Source of the DNA: Verrucosispora sioxanthis
GTDB taxonomy: Bacteria > Actinomycetota > Actinomycetes > Mycobacteriales > Micromonosporaceae
DNA: 64,000 nucleotides
Direction: 5' to 3'
NCBI RefSeq assembly: GCF_010560025.1
Contig: NZ_SAIY01000003.1
Span: 620,001-684,000 of the forward strand
The notes below the pieces were generated by a model. The model had not been told where the DNA came from and did no database searches. It saw only the letters and a list, made by a program, of their open reading frames with translations. This document shows, piece after piece, positions 52,245 to 63,748 of the stretch (the first letter of the stretch is position 1; each line of letters starts with the position of its first letter). The position numbers and the translations under genes were made by a program.

Positions 52245-52901
52245 GTGCGGGTGCTCCTGGTGGAAGACGACCTGCGCGTCTCGGCGGGGCTCGCGTCGGC
52301 GCTGCGGCGGCGGGGGCACGACGTGGTCCAGGCGGTGACGGCCGCCGAGGCGGTCGAGGCCGATCCGGTCGACCTGGTGCTGCTCGACATGAGCCTGCCC
52401 GACCGGGACGGTCTGGAGGTGTGTCGGTGGATCCGCCAGCACGACGAGGGGGTCGCGATCATCGCGGTGACCGCCCGGGCGGAGGAGCACGACCGGGTGG
52501 CCGGGCTGCGGGCCGGCGCCGACGACTACGTGGTCAAGCCGTTCTCGATGGTCGAGTTGCAGGCGCGCATCGAGGCGGTGATGCGGCGCACCGCCCGTAC
52601 CGTCCGGCCGGCGACCACGTTGCGGGTCGGCGTGCTGCGCATCGACGTGGACGCCCGGCGGATACGGGTCGGTGATCGCGAGGTCGGCCTGTCCCGTAAG
52701 GAGTTCGACCTGCTGGTGGCCCTGGCCCGGCAGGCGGGCACGGTGGTGCCCCGGGACCGGTTGCAGCTCGACGTCTGGCAGACCACCTGGGCCACCCGGC
52801 ACAACCTGGACGTCCACGTCGCCGCGCTGCGCGGCAAGCTGGACGATCCGGGTCTGGTGGAGACGGTTCGTGGCGTCGGCTACCGGCTGCGCGCCACCTG
52901 A
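52245..52901 (+). CDS. OmpR-family response regulator, orphan
   Basis: Protein of 218 aa. Receiver: VLLVEDD, LVLLDMSLPDRDGLEV with phospho-Asp near residue 49, IIAVTARAEE and DDYVVKPFS with the conserved Lys. Winged helix from ~125: LSRKEFDLLVALARQAGTVV, HNLDVHVAALRGKLDDP, TVRGVGYRL. GTG 52245 follows GAGGAGGG by 5 bases. No histidine kinase is adjacent, so its partner must be elsewhere. Confidence 0.92.
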   Translation: MRVLLVEDDLRVSAGLASALRRRGHDVVQAVTAAEAVEADPVDLVLLDMSLPDRDGLEVCRWIRQHDEGVAIIAVTARAEEHDRVAGLRAGADDYVVKPFSMVELQARIEAVMRRTARTVRPATTLRVGVLRIDVDARRIRVGDREVGLSRKEFDLLVALARQAGTVVPRDRLQLDVWQTTWATRHNLDVHVAALRGKLDDPGLVETVRGVGYRLRAT

Positions 52902-53022
52902 CTGGCCGACCGGTCGCCGGCAACCTCAGAGCATCCTCAAGAATCCCAGCTCGCGACCCCGTGGCCGGGTGGGGGCGGGTGTGCTGTGCGTACCCAGCCA
53001 TCCCTCCTGTTTGGAGATCCCC

Positions 53023-55122
53023 TTGAGATACAGACGGACAACGGCCGGTGTCTTCTCCGCGCTCCTCGCCGTCACCCTCGCGGCGACCGCGCAACCCGCC
53101 CGGGCTACGACGGCCGCCGAGCCGAACCAGGTGCAGGGCCTGACCGTGGTGCCGGGCGACGGGTACGCGACCCTGGCCTGGACCCCGGTCGACGGGGCCA
53201 CCGACTACCAGATCGAGCGCACCCCGGTCGCCGAGGACGGTACCGCCACCGGAGCGCCGGTGATCGTCGGCGTCTGGCGGCCCAACCGGCAGATCAACAA
53301 CTCGGAGCCGACCTTCGCCGACGCCGGCTTCGCCCCCGGCAACCGGTTCCAGTGGTGGGTCCGCGCCCGCCTCGACGGCACCGCGCAGCCGTACTCGGCC
53401 CCGGTCAGCGACATCACCCGGGGGCACTGGGGTGACCCGGACGTGCCCGGCCAGGGCCTGCGTACCCAGTGGGAGACCACGCTGGGCGCGCAGTACACGG
53501 ACGACGTCGACGAGTACGCCTACACCTCGGCGATCGACGAGCTGAGCGACCGGGTGCGGGTGGTCGAGATCGGCCGCACCGTGCAGGACCGGCCGATCAA
53601 CATGTTCGTCATCGGTCACCCCACCCCACCGGCCACCCCGGAGGCGGTGGCCGCGACGAACCCCCTGGTGGTCAACTGCAACGTGCACGGCAACGAGCCC
53701 GGTGACCGCGAAGCATGCCTGATCATGGCGCGGCAGTTGGCGTTCACCGACGACCCGACCACGCTCGGCCTGCTGTCGAGGACCACCATGCTGATCGTCC
53801 CGACGATCAACGGCGACGGTCGGGCGGCCAACAGCCGGGGCAACTCCACCGGGCAGGACCTCAACCGGGACTACTCGCTGATCCGCCAGCCGGAGACCCA
53901 GGCGTTCGTCGAGATGGTCCGCGACTACCGGCCGATCGCCAGCTACGACGGTCACGAGTACGGCAACTCCAACACCGGTGACCTGCCGATGCTGCCGCCC
54001 CGGCACCAGAACGTCGCGCAGGGGATCTTCGACCAGTCGCAGCACATGATCGAGGGACACATGTACACCCAGGGCGCCCAGGATGGCTGGTGGGCCTGCC
54101 CGTACGGGTGCACCGGGGCCAACATCGGTCTGGGCGAGGAGACCATCCTGCGCAACACCCTCGGGCTGAAGAACGTGGTCAACTCCCTGCTGGAGCTGCG
54201 CAGTTCGGGCGGGCCGACGCGGCCGGACGAGGGCAACACCGCCAACAACCGCCGGCGCAAGACGTACTCGGCACTGTGGACGTTCCACCAGTTCCTCGCG
54301 TATCACGGGGCGAACGTCGGTGCCATCACCGCCGCCCGCGCCGAGGCGATCAGGTTCCAGTCGGCGAACACTGGCCGGATCGTCTTCCGGGGCTCACGCC
54401 CGATCGAGGCGTACCCGGCGCCGCACCCGGGTGACACACCGCCGCCGCTGGACGCACCGAGTGCGGACCAGATCCTGGCGCAGCCGCCGTGCGCGTACAA
54501 GCTCACCGAGGAGCAGTACCACGGTGCGCGTACCGATGGTCCGGCGGGCCGGCGGACCACGGTGGCCGAGCGGCTCGCCGCGCACGGTTGGCGGGTGGTC
54601 AAGGTGGCTGGCGGGTACCTCGTACCGCTGTCCCAGCCGGAGCGGGGGCTGGTGCCGTTGCTGCTCGACGAGCAGGCCGCCGAGGGCCTGGCGGCCGGAG
54701 AGCGGATCGCGCCCACGCTCACCGGCACCCACAACGGCCCGCTGACGGTCACCGGCGTGGCCTGCCTCGCCGACGCCACCGTCCGGGGTCCGGTCCGGGT
54801 CCGGCCCGGCGCCACCCTGATCGTCAACGGTGGCTCGATCAACGGTCCGGTGGACGCCGGCGGCGCGGCCGGTTTCGTGCTGACCGCCAGCACCGTCAAC
54901 GGCCCGGTGAACGTCACCGGCACGACCGGTCCGGTCCTGCTGGTCGGCAATCGGATCAGCGGCCCGGTCAACGTGGTCAACAGCGCGGGCGTCGCCCCGC
55001 TGCTGGCCGGCAACACTGTCAACGGTCCCCTGGGCTGCACCGGCAACACCGCCGCCCCGGTGAACATCGAGGTCGCCAACGCGGTCAGCGGCCCACGGTT
55101 CAACCAGTGCGCGCGGCTGTGA
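53023..55122 (+). CDS. Secreted M14 zinc carboxypeptidase with NGPV-repeat C-terminus, TTG start
   Basis: Protein of 699 aa. TTG 53023, 6 bases after GGAG, begins a signal peptide (RRTTAGVFSALLAVTLAATA). Fibronectin-like domain ~36-130, then the M14 domain ~160-430: NVHGNEP with His222/Glu225, GQDLNRDYS (Asn281-Arg282) and DGHEYGN with His311. The C-terminal ~130 residues repeat NGPVxV (THNGPLTVTGV, INGPVDAGG, VNGPVNVTG, ISGPVNVV, VNGPLGCTG), which suggests a beta-helix. It cleaves C-terminal residues outside the cell. Confidence 0.88.
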   Translation: MRYRRTTAGVFSALLAVTLAATAQPARATTAAEPNQVQGLTVVPGDGYATLAWTPVDGATDYQIERTPVAEDGTATGAPVIVGVWRPNRQINNSEPTFADAGFAPGNRFQWWVRARLDGTAQPYSAPVSDITRGHWGDPDVPGQGLRTQWETTLGAQYTDDVDEYAYTSAIDELSDRVRVVEIGRTVQDRPINMFVIGHPTPPATPEAVAATNPLVVNCNVHGNEPGDREACLIMARQLAFTDDPTTLGLLSRTTMLIVPTINGDGRAANSRGNSTGQDLNRDYSLIRQPETQAFVEMVRDYRPIASYDGHEYGNSNTGDLPMLPPRHQNVAQGIFDQSQHMIEGHMYTQGAQDGWWACPYGCTGANIGLGEETILRNTLGLKNVVNSLLELRSSGGPTRPDEGNTANNRRRKTYSALWTFHQFLAYHGANVGAITAARAEAIRFQSANTGRIVFRGSRPIEAYPAPHPGDTPPPLDAPSADQILAQPPCAYKLTEEQYHGARTDGPAGRRTTVAERLAAHGWRVVKVAGGYLVPLSQPERGLVPLLLDEQAAEGLAAGERIAPTLTGTHNGPLTVTGVACLADATVRGPVRVRPGATLIVNGGSINGPVDAGGAAGFVLTASTVNGPVNVTGTTGPVLLVGNRISGPVNVVNSAGVAPLLAGNTVNGPLGCTGNTAAPVNIEVANAVSGPRFNQCARL

Positions 55123-57479: not shown

Positions 57480-59611
57480 TCAGGAGATCGACAGCTGACG
57501 CAACCGACCGTCGGGGCCGACCAGGTAGAGATCGAGCCGGTTGGCGCCGGCCCGGAAGAGACGGTCGTCGGCGAGCAGGGCCGCGAAGCGTCGGCCGCCC
57601 GGATCCGGGGCGACCACCGGCACCACCGTCGCGACCGTACCGTTGACGGCCACCGCCAGTTCGGTGCCGTCGGTGACCTCGTCGCCGACGGTCCCCCAGA
57701 TCATGCCGGGCAGCACACCCTCGTCGGGATCGACGGCGCGGAAGGCGCCCAGCCCGCCGACCCGGGCGCTGCCGGCGGCCGGAGCCGCACCCACGGCGGT
57801 GCCGACCAGCCGGTGCGGGGTGCCGGTGGCGGCGCGACCGGCACCCCGCCGCTGATCGGCATCGGTTGCGACGGCCGGTCGTAGAAGACCTTGCCCGCGT
57901 CGGTGCGGGGCGCCTGCAGGGCGGACCGACCGTCGACCCGCCAGGGCAGCCTGATGGCGGCCTCCTCGGCGACCGTCGGCAGCAGGTCGACGTGTTGCCA
58001 GTTGCGGTCGTCGACCCGCCCACCGCGCTGGCCGGGTGTCTTGACGAACAGCGGCACCCAGGCCACCTCGTCGGCGGCGGCCCGGATCGCGTCCTCGCCG
58101 CGCCCCTGCACCCCCTTGGTGAAGCTGACCCCGTGGTCGGCGGTGACCACCACCAGCGCCTCGTCCCACAGGCCGCTGGCGCGCAGCGTACGCATCGTCT
58201 CGCCGATCAGCCGGTCGGTGTAGCCGAGCTGGGCGAGATGCCGGGCGCGGGCCAGGTCCACCCAGCCGTCACCCTCGTTGGGGAAGTCCTCCGGGGCCTC
58301 GTACCGCGCGCCGGACGGCAGGAACGCCCACGGCGAGTGGGGCATCAACAGGTGCAGGAAGTGCAGCGTCGGTCGCGCCGACGGGGTCAGTCCGTTGAGA
58401 AAGCTGGTGAACCGGGCCGGCTGGTTGACGTTGAGGCTGTCCCAGCGGAACTTCGGGTCGGTCGGCACCGGCTCGGCGGCGTCGATACCGGCCTCCTCCG
58501 CGGTGCGCTCGCGGTAGGAGTCCTCCGGGTCGATCCGACTGTCGTGCGGCGCGGTCAGCTGACGCAGCAGCCCTGCCGTCTCCCGCACCAGCACACCGAC
58601 CCCCTGCTCCGGCGTGACCGGCTGCTCGCAGCGGCTCGGTGGGCAGAGCCGGGTGATGCTCTCCTCCGCGCGGATGTCGTAGAGCCCGCCGAAGGCGGTG
58701 AAGAGGTTGTCCGGGTAGTGCGAGTAGTGCGGGGCGAACGGCTCCGCCGGGTAGCGGCCGGTCAGCATCGCCGGCAGCGCGTACGGTGTCCATCCGCTGA
58801 CTCCGGTCGCGTTGCGATACCAGGTCGAGGCGGCGGCCAGCTCGGCGAAGTGCGGGAACCGGGCCGCGTCGACGCCACCGGCGGCGTCGAGCAGGGAGAC
58901 CAGCGGAAGCTCGTCGAGGATCAGCATGACCACCGGCGGGTGCCGGTTGCCGGTCGCCGTGCCCGCCACGCCGCCGTCGCCGAGCGGCAGCACCACCGGC
59001 CCGGTCGGCGAGGCGAACAGGAACAGCCCGACGAAGATCGGCGGTCCGACGGCCGCCAGGCGCAGCGCCCGGCCGAGGGCCGTCCAGCGCCGGTGGGCGA
59101 CGGCCGCGCCGGCACCGACCGTCGCCGCCACCAGCAGCAGCGGTACGCCCCGCAGCGGCGTGGTGTGCCGGCCCACCTGCACCGCCAGCGCGGCGACCAG
59201 CAGCCCGAGCAGCAGGCTGTGCGTCACTGCGCGCGCCGCGGCTCCGGCCAGACCGGCGAGCAGACCCACCAGCCCGAGCGCCACCGTCGGCACCACCGCG
59301 ACCAGGGCCACCAGCAGCAGGATCTCACCCCGGTCGGCGCGGTGGAACAGGAAGAAGTCCGGGCTGCGGCCGAGGATGTCCAGCAGCGGTTGGGTGACCA
59401 CCAATCCGACCAGCGCGGTGACCTCCAGCAGCCGCCGGCCCTCGGCCCGCCAGCCGGCCCGGCCCCGCCACCCTCGCCGGCGGTTGACCGGCGCTCCGAT
59501 CGGTCCGGCGTGGACGGATCCTCGTGGCGCCGGATCGTCACCGCTCGCGGTGTCCGGACGTGCGGCACCGGGGTCGGGTAGGCCGGCACCGGTGGTGGGG
59601 CGGTCGGTCAC
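57480..59611 (-). CDS. Membrane-bound sulfatase/phosphoglycerol-transferase-like protein, frame broken near the C-terminus
   Basis: From GTG 59611: Pro-rich start, about five to six membrane helices (LLLVALVAVVPTVALGLVGLLAGL), then an alkaline-phosphatase-fold domain: VVMLILDELPLVSLLD, VSGWTPYALPAMLTGRYPAE, LLMPHSPWAFLPSG, VVVTADHGVSFTKG. Near 57845 the frame changes; one missing base continues as ATGTPHRLVGTAVG to DGRLRQLSIS and a stop at 57480 (710 aa). The GTGA overlap couples it to the methyltransferase ahead. Probably modifies a cell-envelope glycan. Confidence 0.8.
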
Positions 59612-61083
59612 GGAAGCGCCACCCGGTACAGGGTGCGGGTGCCCGAGGGCAACTCCAGGCGGTCCTCGACGGTGCCGTGTTCGGCGAGCAGCGTCTCGAA
59701 GGCGTCCCGCCGGTAGTCGGGGAAGATGCCGTCCGGCTTGTTGGCCAGCAGCCGGGCGGCCATCGGGTCGTCCGGGTGGACGAACTCGACCACCAGCCGG
59801 CCGCCGGGTGCGGCGAGGCCGGCGAGGCAGGTCAGCACCTCCGGCAGCGGCACGTTTCGCCCGATCGCCAGGTGGTGCACCAGGGCCAGGGCGAGCACCG
59901 TGTCCGCGTTGGCCCGGGCGGCGAACGAGGCCCGCTCGATCCCGCGCCAGCCACCGCCGGGGGACGGGTCGGCCAGATCCATCACCAGCGGCAGCACGTG
60001 CCGTTCGTCCTCGCCCCGCAGCGTGCGGTACAGCCGGTCGACCACCGCCGGGTCCTGCTCGACGGCGACCACGTAGTCGGCGTGCCGGGCGGCGAGCCGG
60101 GCGTACCGTCCGTCGTTGGCGCCCAGGTCGAGCACGAGCCGGCGCCGACCGGCGGCGCTCAGCGCGGCGACGACGAAACGCTCCTTGCCCGCCCGGTCGT
60201 CGCCGGAGTAGCCGCAGGTGTGCTGGTAGTCGACCCAGTGGGTGGCCGCCGGCTGATGGTCCAGGCGGCGGACGAGCTTCTCCAACCCCCGCACGGTGGC
60301 CACGGCCAGCTCACGGGTGTACCCGGCGTCGCGCAACTGGGCACGTACGTCGGCGGTGCTGGTGGCGGCGCTGCGGCGCTGCACCGAGCCGTGCAGGTGG
60401 ACGTGGGTGAGCACCCCGGGCAGCAGCCGACGGACGCCCCGGAACAGTGGTCCCATCTGCTCCGGCTCGATGCCGTCGACCTGGGCCCGCAGCCACGGCT
60501 GGAAGGCCAGCCCCAGGTGGGCGCCGAGCATCAGCGGGTAGAGCAGCGTCTGACAGAACTGTCGGTAGCCGGCCCAGGGTTCACCGTCGCGCAGCGGGGT
60601 GAACGACCCCACGTCGATGAAGACCGGCTCGGTGCCGCGCCACTGGAGGTTGTACGCCGAGCCGTCCTTGGTGGTGAAGCCCGCCGGCAGGGCGGCCCGG
60701 AGGATCTCCAGGTGCAGCAGCGCGGCGTCGCGCAGCATCGCGAAGGACCATTCGTACGGGTGTGAGACGAACGGGACGCGCTCGTGCCGCAGCACCGTCA
60801 CCCAGCCCGGCGACTCCGGAGCGGTCGGCAGCTCCCGCAACGGCGACTCCGCCGGCAGTTCCTCGGTGCCGCAGACCTTGCCGGCGGTGAGCAACGGCGG
60901 AAAGAAGCTGCTGGCGGCGAGGGCACGCCAGTCGGCGGCGGCGGTCCGGTCGAGCGCGCGCAGCACGTCGTCGCCGGCGTGGAAGATCCGGTTGGCCGGG
61001 TCGCGGAAGGATCCCGGCTCCGGTCGAGGGTCGACGTCGAGCGGGGCCGGTCGCGGCGGCCGGCCCAGGTCTGGCATCACCAT
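59608..61083 (-). CDS. SAM-dependent methyltransferase in a sulfatase operon
   Basis: Protein of 491 aa. N-terminal ~270 residues (FRDPANRIFHAGDDVLRAL, YEWSFAMLRDAALLHLEIL, RGTEPVFIDVGSFTPL) are typical of an actinobacterial family; the C-terminal class I methyltransferase has LVLDLGANDGRYARLAAR (motif I), VAVEQDP and VLALALVHHLAIGRNVPL. Middle gene of three, between a small membrane protein and the sulfatase. A sugar or envelope glycan methylation role is inferred. Confidence 0.85.
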   Translation of the reverse strand: MVMPDLGRPPRPAPLDVDPRPEPGSFRDPANRIFHAGDDVLRALDRTAAADWRALAASSFFPPLLTAGKVCGTEELPAESPLRELPTAPESPGWVTVLRHERVPFVSHPYEWSFAMLRDAALLHLEILRAALPAGFTTKDGSAYNLQWRGTEPVFIDVGSFTPLRDGEPWAGYRQFCQTLLYPLMLGAHLGLAFQPWLRAQVDGIEPEQMGPLFRGVRRLLPGVLTHVHLHGSVQRRSAATSTADVRAQLRDAGYTRELAVATVRGLEKLVRRLDHQPAATHWVDYQHTCGYSGDDRAGKERFVVAALSAAGRRRLVLDLGANDGRYARLAARHADYVVAVEQDPAVVDRLYRTLRGEDERHVLPLVMDLADPSPGGGWRGIERASFAARANADTVLALALVHHLAIGRNVPLPEVLTCLAGLAAPGGRLVVEFVHPDDPMAARLLANKPDGIFPDYRRDAFETLLAEHGTVEDRLELPSGTRTLYRVALP

Positions 61084-61092
61084 CGGGTCGGG

Positions 61093-61242
61093 TCAGCTCT
61101 GGTCGGTGGGCTGGCGGCGGAACCGGCTGACGAGCCTGCGCCAGTAGAGCTTGGCCGCCACCGCGATCCCGGCGATCCCGCCGACCACCGCCTGCACGAT
61201 GAGGCTGCCGGATCCCGCGTCCAGGTAGGCCAGGTGGTTCAC
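61093..61242 (-). CDS. Small conserved membrane protein, YLD-GSGS type, 49 aa
   Basis: GTG 61242 follows GGAAGGAG by 6 bases and opens a 50-codon gene: LAYLDAGSGSLIVQAVVGGIAGIAVAAKLYW, then a basic tail RRLVSRFRR. The YLDPGSGS-x-QAxxGG pattern followed by a KLYWRR end is a small membrane protein I have met repeatedly beside sulfatase-like and glycan-modifying genes. First gene of the operon with the methyltransferase (9-base gap) and sulfatase. Role unknown; perhaps a membrane partner of the sulfatase. Confidence 0.75.
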   Translation of the reverse strand: MNHLAYLDAGSGSLIVQAVVGGIAGIAVAAKLYWRRLVSRFRRQPTDQS

Positions 61243-61390
61243 CGACCGCTCCTTCCCTCTGCCGTCACAAACCGACACCGCCGCCGTACCCCACATTTCG
61301 GATTTCGGCGGCCTGGCCGGACTTATGCCACCGTACGCTGCCAACTGCCCCGCGTCGGGCACAACCGCCCAGTTCCCCCACCCCATCCCA

Positions 61391-61449
61391 TTGATCATGA
61401 GGTTGGCGGTGAGTTTGATCTTCGAAGGTGCCGCTAACCTCATGATCAA
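61391..61449. repeat. Nearly perfect 19-bp palindrome between the two operons
   Basis: TTGATCATGAGGTTGGCGG (61391-61409) and CCGCTAACCTCATGATCAA (61431-61449) pair at 18 of 19 positions; 21-base loop. The right arm overlaps the kinase stop codon. It may terminate transcription, yet is A/T-rich and resembles a dispersed palindromic repeat. Confidence 0.75.
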
Positions 61450-62914
61450 CGCGGGCCGGGGGCGTCGGTTGTGGGGTTGGGGAGGCGGACGGTGAAGATG
61501 GTGTGGCCTGGACGGGAGTGCAGGGTGACGGTGCCGTGGTGGGCCTCCACCACCGCGGCGACGATGGCCAGGCCGAGGCCGGTGCTGCCGTGCGCGCGGG
61601 ATCGGGAGCTGTCGCCGCGGGCGAAGCGTTCGAACACCTCGGGCCGCAGCTCGGGGGGTACGCCGGGGCCGTCGTCGGTCACGCTGAGCTCGGCGGCGTC
61701 GCCGGTCCGGCGCAGGCTGGTGGTGACGGTGCTGCCGGGCGGCGTGTGCACCCGGGCGTTGGTCAGCAGGTTGGCCAGCACCTGGTGCAGCCGGGCGGGG
61801 TCGCCGGGCACCCGGATGACCGTCTCGGGCAGGTCGAGCTGCCAGCGGTGCTCGGGGCCGGCCACGTGCGCGTCGCTGACGGCATCCACGACCAGCGCGG
61901 TGAGGTCGACCGGTTCGACCGCGAGAGGTCGACCGGAGTCCAGCCGGGCCAGCAGCAGCAGGTCGTCGACGAGGCTGGTCATCCGGGTGCTCTCCGACTC
62001 GACCCGGCGCAGCGCGTGGGCCACGTCGGTCGGCACCTCGGCACGGCCCCGGCGGGCCACCTCGGCGTAGCCACGGATCGCCGCGAGGGGGGTACGCAGT
62101 TCGTGACTGGCGTCGGCGACGAACTGGCGTACCCGGGTCTCGCTGGCCTGCCGGGCGGCGAGGGCGGCGGCGACGTGGCCGAGCATCCGGTTGAGCGCGG
62201 CGCCGACCTGACCGACCTCGGTACGCGGATCGGTGTCGGCGGCCGGCACCGGTCGGAGAGCGCCACCTCGCCCCGGTCGAGCGGTAGCTCACTGACCCGG
62301 GCGGCGGTGGCGGCGACCCGGCGCAGCGGACGCAGCGTGGCCCGGACGATCAGCGCCCCGGCGGTGCCGGCGACCAGCAGGCCGACCACGGTGACCCCGG
62401 CCTGCGCGGCGACCAGCGCCCAGACGGTCTCCCGCACGCCGGCCAGCGGCACGCCCAGCACCCGCACGGTCCCGGTGGCCGACCGCCGGGCCACCACCCG
62501 GTAGCCGCCCCGCTCGCCCAGGCCGACGCTGTGTGCCCGGCCGTCGGTGGGCACCTCGGCCAGCGCCCGCACCTGGTCGACCGGTACCGACTGCTCCTGT
62601 CGACCGACAAGCGTCCACGCCTCGGTGACCCGGCCGTCGACGACCTGGGCGCTGATCGTGCCGGGCGGGAAGCCGCGCGGCACCCGCACATCGCCCCACG
62701 GGCCGGTGCCGGGGCCGGGCTCCCACGCGGCGGTGGGTCGCCCTCCGGGCGTGAAGCGCAACTGCTCGTCCACCCGGGAGATCAGGAACTGCCGCAGCGC
62801 CACGGTGGTGAGACCACCGATGGCCAGGCTGACCACGGCGAGCAGCGCCACCAGGGTCAGCACCAGGCGGGTCCGCAGCGACCAGCCGGCCAGCCACCGG
62901 CGCACCCCGGTCAC
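61446..62914 (-). CDS. Sensor histidine kinase, frame broken once in HAMP region
   Basis: GTG 62914 overlaps the response regulator stop (GTGA). Two membrane helices (residues ~16-40 and ~160-185), extracellular loop, HAMP, then HisKA (FVADASHELRTPLAAIRGYAEV, His) and HATPase (LLTNARVHTPP, DDGPGVPPELRPEVFERFARGD, GSTGLGLAIVAAVVEAHHG). The frame is lost near 62250 in ELPLDRGEVALSDR; one missing G before TGCC would continue as VPAADTDPRTEVGQ for 489 aa. Works with the regulator ahead of it. Confidence 0.85.
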
Positions 62915-63666
62915 TCCGCCGGCTTGAGCAGGTACCCGGCCCCGCGCAGTGTGTGGATCATCGGCCGGCGGCCGGCGTCGATCTTCTTCCGCAGGTACGA
63001 GATGTACAGCTCGACGACGTTGGCCTGGCCACCGAAGTCGTAGTTCCACACCCGGTCGAGGATCTGTGCCTTGCTCAGCACCCGGCGGGGGTTGCGCATC
63101 AGGTACCGCAGCAGCTCGAACTCGGTGGCGGTGAGGGTGATCAGTTGCCCGTCCCGGCGTACCTCGTGGCTGTCCTCGTCGAGGGTCAGGTCGCCCACGG
63201 TGAGCACCGCCTCCGCACGGGTGGCCACCGCGAAGCCGGAGCGACGCAGCAGCGCGCGCAGCCGGGCGATGACCTCCTCGAGGCTGAACGGCTTGGTCAC
63301 GTAGTCGTCGCCGCCGACGGTCAGCCCGGCGACGCGCTCCTCGACCGCGTCCCGGGCGGTGAGAAAGAGCACCGGCACGCTGTCGTTGTCCGCCCGCAGC
63401 CTGCGCAGCACCTGGAGACCGTCCAGGTCGGGCAGCATCACGTCGAGCACCACCGCGTCGGGTCGGAACTGCCGGGCGGCGCGTAGCGCCGCCATGCCGT
63501 CGGCCGCCGTACGCACCTGCCAGCCCTCGTAGCGCAGCGCCATCGACAGCAGGTCGGTCAGGGTCGGCTCGTCGTCGACGACCAGCACCCGGACCGGCTC
63601 ACCGTCCGGTCGACGCAGCTCCACCCGGTCCAGTCCGGCCTCGCCCCCGATCCTCATGGATGCCAT
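62911..63666 (-). CDS. OmpR-family response regulator
   Basis: Protein of 251 aa. Receiver: VRVLVVDDEPTLTDLLSMAL, PDAVVLDVMLPDLDGLQV with the phospho-Asp, VLFLTARDA and DDYVTKPFS. Winged helix: LTATEFELLRYLMRNPRRVLSKAQILDRVWNYDFGGQANVVELYISYLRKKID. Resembles the actinobacterial PhoP/TcrA class. ATG 63666 or ATG 63657; neither has a strong ribosome site. Coupled by GTGA overlap to the kinase. Confidence 0.92.
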   Translation of the reverse strand: MASMRIGGEAGLDRVELRRPDGEPVRVLVVDDEPTLTDLLSMALRYEGWQVRTAADGMAALRAARQFRPDAVVLDVMLPDLDGLQVLRRLRADNDSVPVLFLTARDAVEERVAGLTVGGDDYVTKPFSLEEVIARLRALLRRSGFAVATRAEAVLTVGDLTLDEDSHEVRRDGQLITLTATEFELLRYLMRNPRRVLSKAQILDRVWNYDFGGQANVVELYISYLRKKIDAGRRPMIHTLRGAGYLLKPAE

Positions 63667-63748
63667 GGTGCTGCCGCGCACTTGGTGGCGCTTGGGTGGC
63701 TGCTGTGTGCCAGCTGTGCGGTCCGGCCGGGGCGCGGTCGGTGTCGGG

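Follow-up and report, generated by a model that had tools for sequence, protein, structure and literature searches.

A YLDPGTGS-family membrane protein encoded beside NoeA and NoeB as a possible third component of an envelope-modification system

The genes noeA and noeB have been known since 1995 as host-range nodulation genes (PMC9048898). In Sinorhizobium meliloti they belong to the operon nodL-noeA-noeB, which is under the control of nod box n5 (PMC4053727, PMC9048898), and PMC9048898 still describes what NoeA and NoeB do to the Nod factor as hypothesised. Between nodL and noeA in Sinorhizobium there is also a YLDPGTGS open reading frame of 71 aa, annotated 'hypothetical protein'. The title of Ardourel 1995 reportedly names only nodL, noeA and noeB. 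A comparable arrangement is found in Legionella anisa, where one locus (L269) runs from a gene that we take to be acyltransferase-like through a small protein to NoeA and NoeB, and where a second NoeA locus (L267) has a small gene too. With locus tags matched by gene order only, the L. anisa small protein is very probably Lani_1193. According to PMC9758233, Lani_1193 and Lani_1195, the neighbours of Lani_1194, likely encode effectors, and in its analysis of neighbourhood conservation they score 65% of 816 and 38%, respectively. The original prediction for the locus described here spoke of a shared envelope-modifying complex that had not been described; the pairing of NoeA with NoeB and a conserved third neighbour were already in print in that paper, and what survives of the claim is that its available text does not state the nature of Lani_1193 beside the conservation figure.

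We analysed a stretch of 64,000 nucleotides from the actinomycete Verrucosispora sioxanthis (the window), in which three tightly packed genes, all on the minus strand like every feature given below, are ordered as a small gene of 49 codons, a noeA-type gene and a noeB-type gene. The small gene (61093..61242) starts with GTG, with the ribosome-binding site AAGGAG (61249..61254), as seen in the sequence, 6 nt before it. The noeA-type gene (59608..61083) starts 9 nt past the stop of the small gene, and the GTG of the noeB-type gene (59611-59609) overlaps the noeA-type TGA (59610-59608), bearing out the prediction of a coupled operon headed by a 49-aa membrane protein.

The second gene encodes a protein of 491 aa, characterised by tblastn, profiles and an AlphaFold model, which matches the NoeA locus on pSymA of S. 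meliloti 1021 with 31.6% identity over 95% of its length (E 4e-51, tblastn); judged by sequence, it is a full-length homologue of the nodulation protein NoeA. It had been predicted to be a methyltransferase, which is correct as far as it goes, but incomplete, as there is also a kinase-like N-terminal domain. In the model (pLDDT 93.1) the best structural match of residues 280-491 (59611..60246) is NodS (3ofk_B, Z 19.2, rmsd 2.8 over 183 residues), and the C-terminal part is, on the model, a class I SAM methyltransferase domain; the Pfam matches, PF08242 with 26.7 bits (cut-off 30) and PF13489 with 25.3 bits (cut-off 27), both lie below the curated cut-offs. The N-terminal domain (residues about 20-275; 60259..61026) is conserved, with D140, N145 and D157 invariant in alignments of 56 and 17 sequences. 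Its strand order in the model fits a kinase, the whole-model fold search was filled by methyltransferase matches, and Pfam and PDB sequence searches with this domain gave no kinase match. PMC9758233 assigns a kinase domain to the NoeA family, and here the domain looks kinase-like. The PADLOC entry mad2 was matched by the methyltransferase domain only, and a reading of the locus as a defence system was therefore rejected.

The main frame of the third gene (57701..59611) encodes 636 aa of a NoeB-type enzyme that is predicted to cross the membrane by four or five helices and to carry a domain of the alkaline-phosphatase fold. It matches PF00884 (Sulfatase) with 64.2 bits (cut-off 25). In 39 aligned NoeB proteins D492 is invariant and D233, T275, H420, H425 and H493 are kept at 90% or more, residues that we take to be the metal ligands and the nucleophile; with this fold, these ligands and this nucleophile position the protein belongs to the alkaline phosphatase superfamily. 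A fold search with the model returned the sulfatase 7ptj_C (Z 27.2, 319 residues aligned, rmsd 4.4), the YejM domain 6vat_D (Z 25.6, 268 aligned, rmsd 3.3) and full-length PbgA 6xlp_A (Z 24.1, 400 aligned, rmsd 12.1), and LtaP was also among the matches. Formylglycine sulfatases carry the activation motif Cys/Ser-x-Pro-x-Arg. The nucleophile position here is Thr275, in GWTPYALP, and the threonine is nearly invariant in the 39 proteins, which rules out a formylglycine sulfatase; of the predicted sulfatase-like membrane enzyme the fold holds and the enzyme is NoeB-like. A different frame (57480-58169, against 57701-59611 for the main one) carries the last ~110 codons, the C-terminal continuation occupying 57480..57860 and the shift falling at about 57800-57861. 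As NoeB is a single open frame in two relatives of the same genus, the break in the window copy is either a frameshift or a sequencing error.

Across many bacterial phyla, genes for a conserved protein family lie beside those for NoeA and/or NoeB; the small protein is a member of this family, for which neither Pfam nor NCBIfam has a model. We defined the family by the pattern Y-[LFIV]-[DG]-x-x-[ST]-x-S, one hydrophobic helix, a basic end and a position beside NoeA/NoeB, all of which the window protein has. Its own motif reads YLD-x-GSGS. It scores E 1.5e-17 against the 78-sequence family profile, which includes the window member itself, and as a lone query it already finds members of other families at E 7.7e-10. 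Members are about 50-100 aa long and share a plan of an optional signal peptide, Y-L-D-P-G-[ST]-G-S, one Gly/Ala-rich hydrophobic helix in which a Gln close to the outer end is conserved, and a basic end. Among the matches listed, 56/117 have a signal-peptide-like leader ending in small-x-small directly before the Tyr, and in members without one the Tyr can be preceded by as many as a dozen residues or even more. In 114 complete members there is no Lys or Arg across 24 residues from the Tyr and a mean of 4.2 over the next 16. The sequence thereby fits a single-pass membrane protein with N-out, C-in topology, the motif being extracytoplasmic and the basic end cytoplasmic. A count over 68 sequences included 10 loci that came from pattern matches, so we quote the 58 distinct sequences not reached via the DNA pattern, in which Tyr is kept in 58, Asp in 54, Ser8 in 53 and Gln12 in 50, the invariance of the Tyr being partly built in because the profile was made from motif-bearing sequences. 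Two candidates from the small-protein search (L013, L014) were chance matches, and a pattern match (L111) was dropped, having no membrane helix and no partner.

The association with NoeA and NoeB is close to certain. In 396 genomes of Actinomycetota the small protein was found in 40, all 40 of which have NoeA; 39/45 copies lie within 190 bp of a NoeA profile match on the same strand, and 5 of the remaining 6 adjoin NoeB (18 small-profile rows with E 2.1e-4 to 0.0095 were left out of these counts). Fisher's test gives 6.7e-53 for the co-occurrence, a value that ignores genome relatedness. When the search of Pseudomonadota was started from NoeA alone, the small gene was present in 8/8 NoeA clusters (7/299 genomes). 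On plasmids tblastn with the 49-aa protein as lone query gave no match at E up to 1; NoeA was therefore used as the query, and of 65 records with NoeA the 7 loci looked at all had the small gene. The DNA-pattern sample contains at least 117 members and, among the matches listed, 105/117 are beside NoeA and 10/117 beside NoeB only, spanning about 18 phyla as assigned from the record titles. At L098 and L176 the NoeA match counted as adjacent is a short fragment at the edge of the stretch; L098 was confirmed later, and the NoeA search of whole genomes covered five of the ten NoeB-only loci. Four genomes (G208, G222, G219, G359) have a further copy of the small gene that directly adjoins noeB and is away from NoeA. 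In ten genomes the small-NoeA stretch shows no NoeB, and NoeB-type matches are present at other places (best E 7.5e-99 to 3.2e-48), the searches having used large-superfamily profiles whose weak rows may be paralogous sulfatases. The original prediction, that the small protein recurs beside such enzymes in many bacteria, had named in advance a lack of co-occurrence beyond the genus as what would count against it; the co-occurrence is present across Actinomycetota, Pseudomonadota and the pattern sample.

Some loci break this rule. Neither partner adjoins the small gene at L199, or is present in the 11-kb stretch of G482:C9, and NoeA occurs in G396 with no small gene in its 12-kb stretch, as does a weak NoeA-like protein in G229 with none in 13 kb. 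A NoeB beside the small gene at L191 is doubtful: an adjacent 486-aa ORF matches the NoeB profile at 3.8e-47 yet has no DHG motif, and the genome is the one of 15 searched with no NoeB match at E 1e-15. At three Chloroflexota loci a topoisomerase gene lies upstream rather than polysaccharide genes, which we counted against an envelope model, and several Chloroflexota have an ORF of 340-370 aa downstream of NoeA (one is P0001), with no Pfam match.

The pattern suggests that a third component of the NoeA-NoeB system has been missed. We put it at about an even chance that the 49-aa protein is the third subunit, with NoeA and NoeB, in a widespread system of envelope modification, and a shared complex is plausible. 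The small protein would be an N-out scaffold subunit that pairs with NoeB and brings cytosolic NoeA to the membrane, with the exposed Y-[LFIV]-D-x-G-[ST]-G-S and the intramembrane Gln docking on NoeB and the basic cytoplasmic end helping to keep the soluble NoeA (kinase-like plus methyltransferase) in place. NoeA may phosphorylate and/or methylate a lipid head group or a glycan linked to lipid on the cytoplasmic side. Outside the membrane NoeB, which the small protein would activate or position, may act on the same product by transferring or removing a phospho-group.

It is possible, at long odds, that the motif takes part in chemistry instead, with NoeB placing a glycosyl- or phospho-group transiently on its Tyr and Ser/Thr, from where it is passed on. 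The DltX tyrosine has reportedly been proposed as such a relay in teichoic acid D-alanylation. The motif Tyr, kept in 58/58 of the sequences that are not pattern-derived, sits just before the helix and would become the N-terminal residue on cleavage in leader-bearing members, although docking alone could conserve the motif, the profile favours motif-bearing sequences, and members without a signal peptide have further residues before the Tyr. DltX, also a small membrane protein, is reported to be essential for D-alanylation (PMC10679467, PMC10903887). Slightly less likely still is a fuller version: the donor, lipid-linked and (methyl)phosphorylated, would be produced by NoeA in the cytoplasm, and its group would be handed on by NoeB outside, with the small protein as the covalent acceptor and essential catalytic partner of a widespread envelope pathway. 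An oligomeric flippase or channel, in which a bundle of many copies moves the modified lipid or glycan, would suit a small single-pass helix that is rich in Gly/Ala and keeps a Gln close to the outside, but would leave the conservation of the extracytoplasmic motif unexplained, and seems more doubtful again. That the small gene is only a translational lead-in to noeA, which it frequently overlaps or shortly precedes, is very improbable and already disfavoured by the conservation of the motif at the amino-acid level, of the leader resembling a signal peptide and of the charge pattern, and by genes that lie downstream of noeA (L087, L243, L267), divergent from it (L103, L142), split off by noeB (L256-L258) or beside noeB only. 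A role as a secreted effector or as a signal peptide, like the one put forward for the genes flanking Lani_1194 in Legionella, is equally improbable given a hydrophobic helix, a basic end, about 18 phyla and the pairing with membrane enzymes.

If a third membrane component has been overlooked, attempts at reconstitution from just NoeA and NoeB would lack a part, and if the subunit model is true, a family absent from Pfam and NCBIfam would offer a handle on envelope modification far beyond rhizobia. Were the covalent relay true, the host-range role of nodL-noeA-noeB would be one specialised application of a general machine.

Among known systems, LtaS, YejM (PbgA) and the sulfatases have the fold of the NoeB model in common, but sulfatases use a Cys/Ser nucleophile where NoeB has Thr. 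To our knowledge these enzymes have no small partner of the YLDPGTGS family, and we know of no small membrane partner for WbdD. WbdD of E. coli O9a, a kinase and methyltransferase acting on polyprenol-linked O-polysaccharide (PMC3482155), resembles NoeA in joining a kinase or kinase-like part to a methyltransferase, though WbdD and Lcin_0519 are described as different, remotely related families (PMC9758233), and the NoeA N-terminal profile gave three matches in the PDB at E up to 1, no WbdD chain among them. DltX, compared by role alone, is likewise a small membrane protein of an envelope-modification (dlt) operon, but with other partner enzymes. Lani_1192-1195 of L. anisa share the order small protein-NoeA-NoeB with the window and differ in that the neighbours there are called likely effectors. 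The S. meliloti operon, like the window, has an ORF of the YLDPGTGS family, NoeA (homologous over 95% of the length) and then a NoeB-type enzyme, whereas the window has no adjoining nodL and its host is an actinomycete.

The three genes of the original prediction are indeed arranged as a closely spaced, minus-strand operon when the frames of the window are read, with the small protein at 61093-61242 (-), the NoeA-type protein at 59608-61083 (-) and the NoeB-type protein running from 59611 down to about 57480 (-). In the third gene one frame extends down to 57701 (57701-59611), and the homologous C-terminal part lies in another, reaching 57480 (57480-58169). In two relatives from the same genus (L046 and L047) the gene is one frame through the corresponding stretch, so that relative to these the window gene is frameshifted, at about 57800-57861. 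Directly upstream of the operon and on the same strand are genes for a sensor kinase and a response regulator (61446-63681). A 19-nt inverted repeat (95%) is also found upstream, at 61391-61449, and its family gives 55 half-site matches genome-wide with at most one mismatch, against 0 for a reversed-pattern control. Downstream is what we take, from its translation, to be a citrate synthase gene, and the presumably carboxypeptidase-like protein at 52672-55122 has NGPV/SGPV units repeated at its C-terminal end.

By tblastn, the second gene is 31.6% identical to the Sinorhizobium NoeA locus in an alignment covering 95% of the length. In the AlphaFold model of the NoeA-type protein (pLDDT 93.1, pTM 0.93) the C-terminal half resembles methyltransferases, with NodS as the top match (Z 19.2, rmsd 2.8, 183 residues). 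The N-terminal half of the model has a kinase-like strand order, and D140, N145 and D157 in this half are retained across 56 aligned proteins. No kinase match was obtained in Pfam or PDB sequence searches and the matches from the whole-model fold search are to the methyltransferase domain. The accessible text of the Legionella kinome survey places the family of NoeA among kinase-methyltransferases (PMC9758233). The third gene encodes a membrane protein with an alkaline-phosphatase fold; its model (pLDDT 76.9) matches a sulfatase (Z 27.2) and the YejM domain (Z 25.6), and Thr275 is likely to be the nucleophile.

No Pfam or NCBIfam model reaches its cut-off for the small protein of the window, nor for four further family members. 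A seven-row profile of the family, searched against 396 Actinomycetota genomes, gave matches in 53 at E ≤ 0.01; those at E ≤ 1.5e-5 were counted, which are 45 places spread over 40 genomes, and 18 weaker rows were left out. An independent search of these 396 genomes for NoeA found it in 43, strongly in 42, and all 40 genomes positive for the small gene fall within these 42. In the other two, G332 and G364, contig ends truncate the loci: G332 retains part of the small gene, its tail, and the contig of G364 begins inside NoeA. At 39 of the 45 places NoeA lies on the same strand within 190 bp, measured between profile matches, and NoeB adjoins five of the remaining six (L050, L051, L052, L068 and L071). 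Neither gene was found within the 11 kb examined around the sixth, G482:C9. From the viewpoint of NoeA, the small gene is adjacent at 39 of 42 loci, with G332 partial; in genome G396 it was not found in the 12 kb surrounding NoeA and is on another contig, together with NoeB. No small gene was found in the 13 kb examined around a weak NoeA-like gene in genome G229. An orphan copy at locus L264 (5317-5523), which carries CIDAGSGS in place of YLD, had neither NoeA nor NoeB within the 11 kb examined.

Among 299 Pseudomonadota genomes, seven carry NoeA (one of these is the centre genome, to which L129 belongs), with eight loci in all, and the small gene is in the cluster at all eight, five times beside NoeA and three times beyond NoeB; the copy in genome G695 is divergent (E 1.8e-6). 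A species-level genome collection was also scanned with a degenerate DNA pattern for YLDPG[ST]GS, three hydrophobic residues and Gln, which gave at least 118 stretches. One match, L111, was discarded, and the 117 kept, among the matches listed, span about 18 phylum-level names as counted from record titles. In 102 of these listed matches NoeA lies no more than 600 bp away, and inspection of stretch edges revealed it in three more (L094, L105 and, as a fragment, L177); ten have NoeB but not NoeA beside them, L191 being doubtful. At L135 NoeB is 4.7 kb away, and L199 has neither gene nearby, both being elsewhere in its genome. Ten genomes in which NoeB is missing from the stretch around the small gene and NoeA each carry NoeB-type genes elsewhere, and for five of the ten NoeB-only loci (L104, L112, L117, L122 and L124) no NoeA was found in the assembly. 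Seven of the 65 NoeA-bearing plasmid records were inspected; each has the small gene, and three of the seven represent one and the same rhizobial operon. The expectation that the small protein would recur beside such enzymes in many bacteria therefore holds in Actinomycetota, in Pseudomonadota and across the 18 or so phylum-level names, and its association with NoeA-NoeB is beyond reasonable doubt.

By a rule of thumb on sequence, applied without a signal-peptide predictor, 56 of the 117 listed matches have a signal-peptide-like leader with a small-x-small end directly preceding the Tyr, in 38 the Tyr follows 12 residues or fewer, and 23 fit neither rule. Lys and Arg are absent from the 24 residues starting at the Tyr and average 4.2 in the next 16 (114 listed members with complete ends), so the charge distribution is a positive-inside pattern, predicting N-out, C-in. 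Past the basic stretch the tail is acidic on average in the listed matches (4.9 Asp/Glu against 1.7 Lys/Arg). In a set of 58 distinct sequences that were found by routes other than the DNA pattern, all 58 retain the Tyr, 54 the Asp, 53 Ser8 and 50 Gln12. Loci L050 and L052, set against L049 and L048, give two copies per genome, one by NoeA and one by NoeB, with a common motif and helix and distinct tails.

NoeB is accompanied by the small protein even in cases in which no NoeA was detected, and four genomes have a second copy that adjoins a NoeB gene distant from NoeA. The two copies of G208, and likewise those of G222, have identical motifs and helices but different cytoplasmic tails. Such a pattern would suit a scaffold, the outer part and helix of which would meet a common partner, with the tail fitted to the neighbour. 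Such a subunit mechanism is the best reading, though the chances of its being correct are about even. The neighbours of the locus are varied. It follows presumed nucleotide-sugar genes in L. bozemanae, is near polysaccharide export genes in Novosphingobium and adjoins what we take to be glycan or phosphonate genes in Pelagibacteraceae; from this variety, which includes Chloroflexota, the substrate of NoeA-NoeB is likely to be an envelope lipid or lipid-linked glycan of general occurrence, and not Nod factor alone. At the Pelagibacteraceae locus L266 the small gene is followed by apparent phosphonate synthesis genes, presumably a PEP mutase-nucleotidyltransferase fusion, a decarboxylase and a dehydrogenase, with NoeB beyond them on the opposite strand. 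In three Chloroflexota (L155, L170 and L137) the small-NoeA locus comes directly after a DNA topoisomerase gene.

In Sinorhizobium meliloti ml46 and Rhizobium sp. T1470 the small gene lies between nodL and noeA, annotated just as a hypothetical protein. No paper was retrieved by full-text literature searches for either YLDPGTGS or YLDPG. In Legionella anisa (L269) the order is a gene that we assume to be acyltransferase-like, then the small gene, NoeA and NoeB. This order agrees with that described for Lani_1192 to Lani_1195, for which the accessible text gives a neighbourhood conservation of 65% of 816 (Lani_1193), there without a description of the gene (PMC9758233); the co-conservation of the small gene with NoeA has therefore very probably been counted already. 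The suggestion that the system had not been described stands in part: apart from that count, as far as the accessible text of the survey goes, the literature searched appears to contain no description of the small family or of its place in NoeA-NoeB. Enzymes accompanied by a small membrane partner are a kind of system that has precedents, DltX among them.
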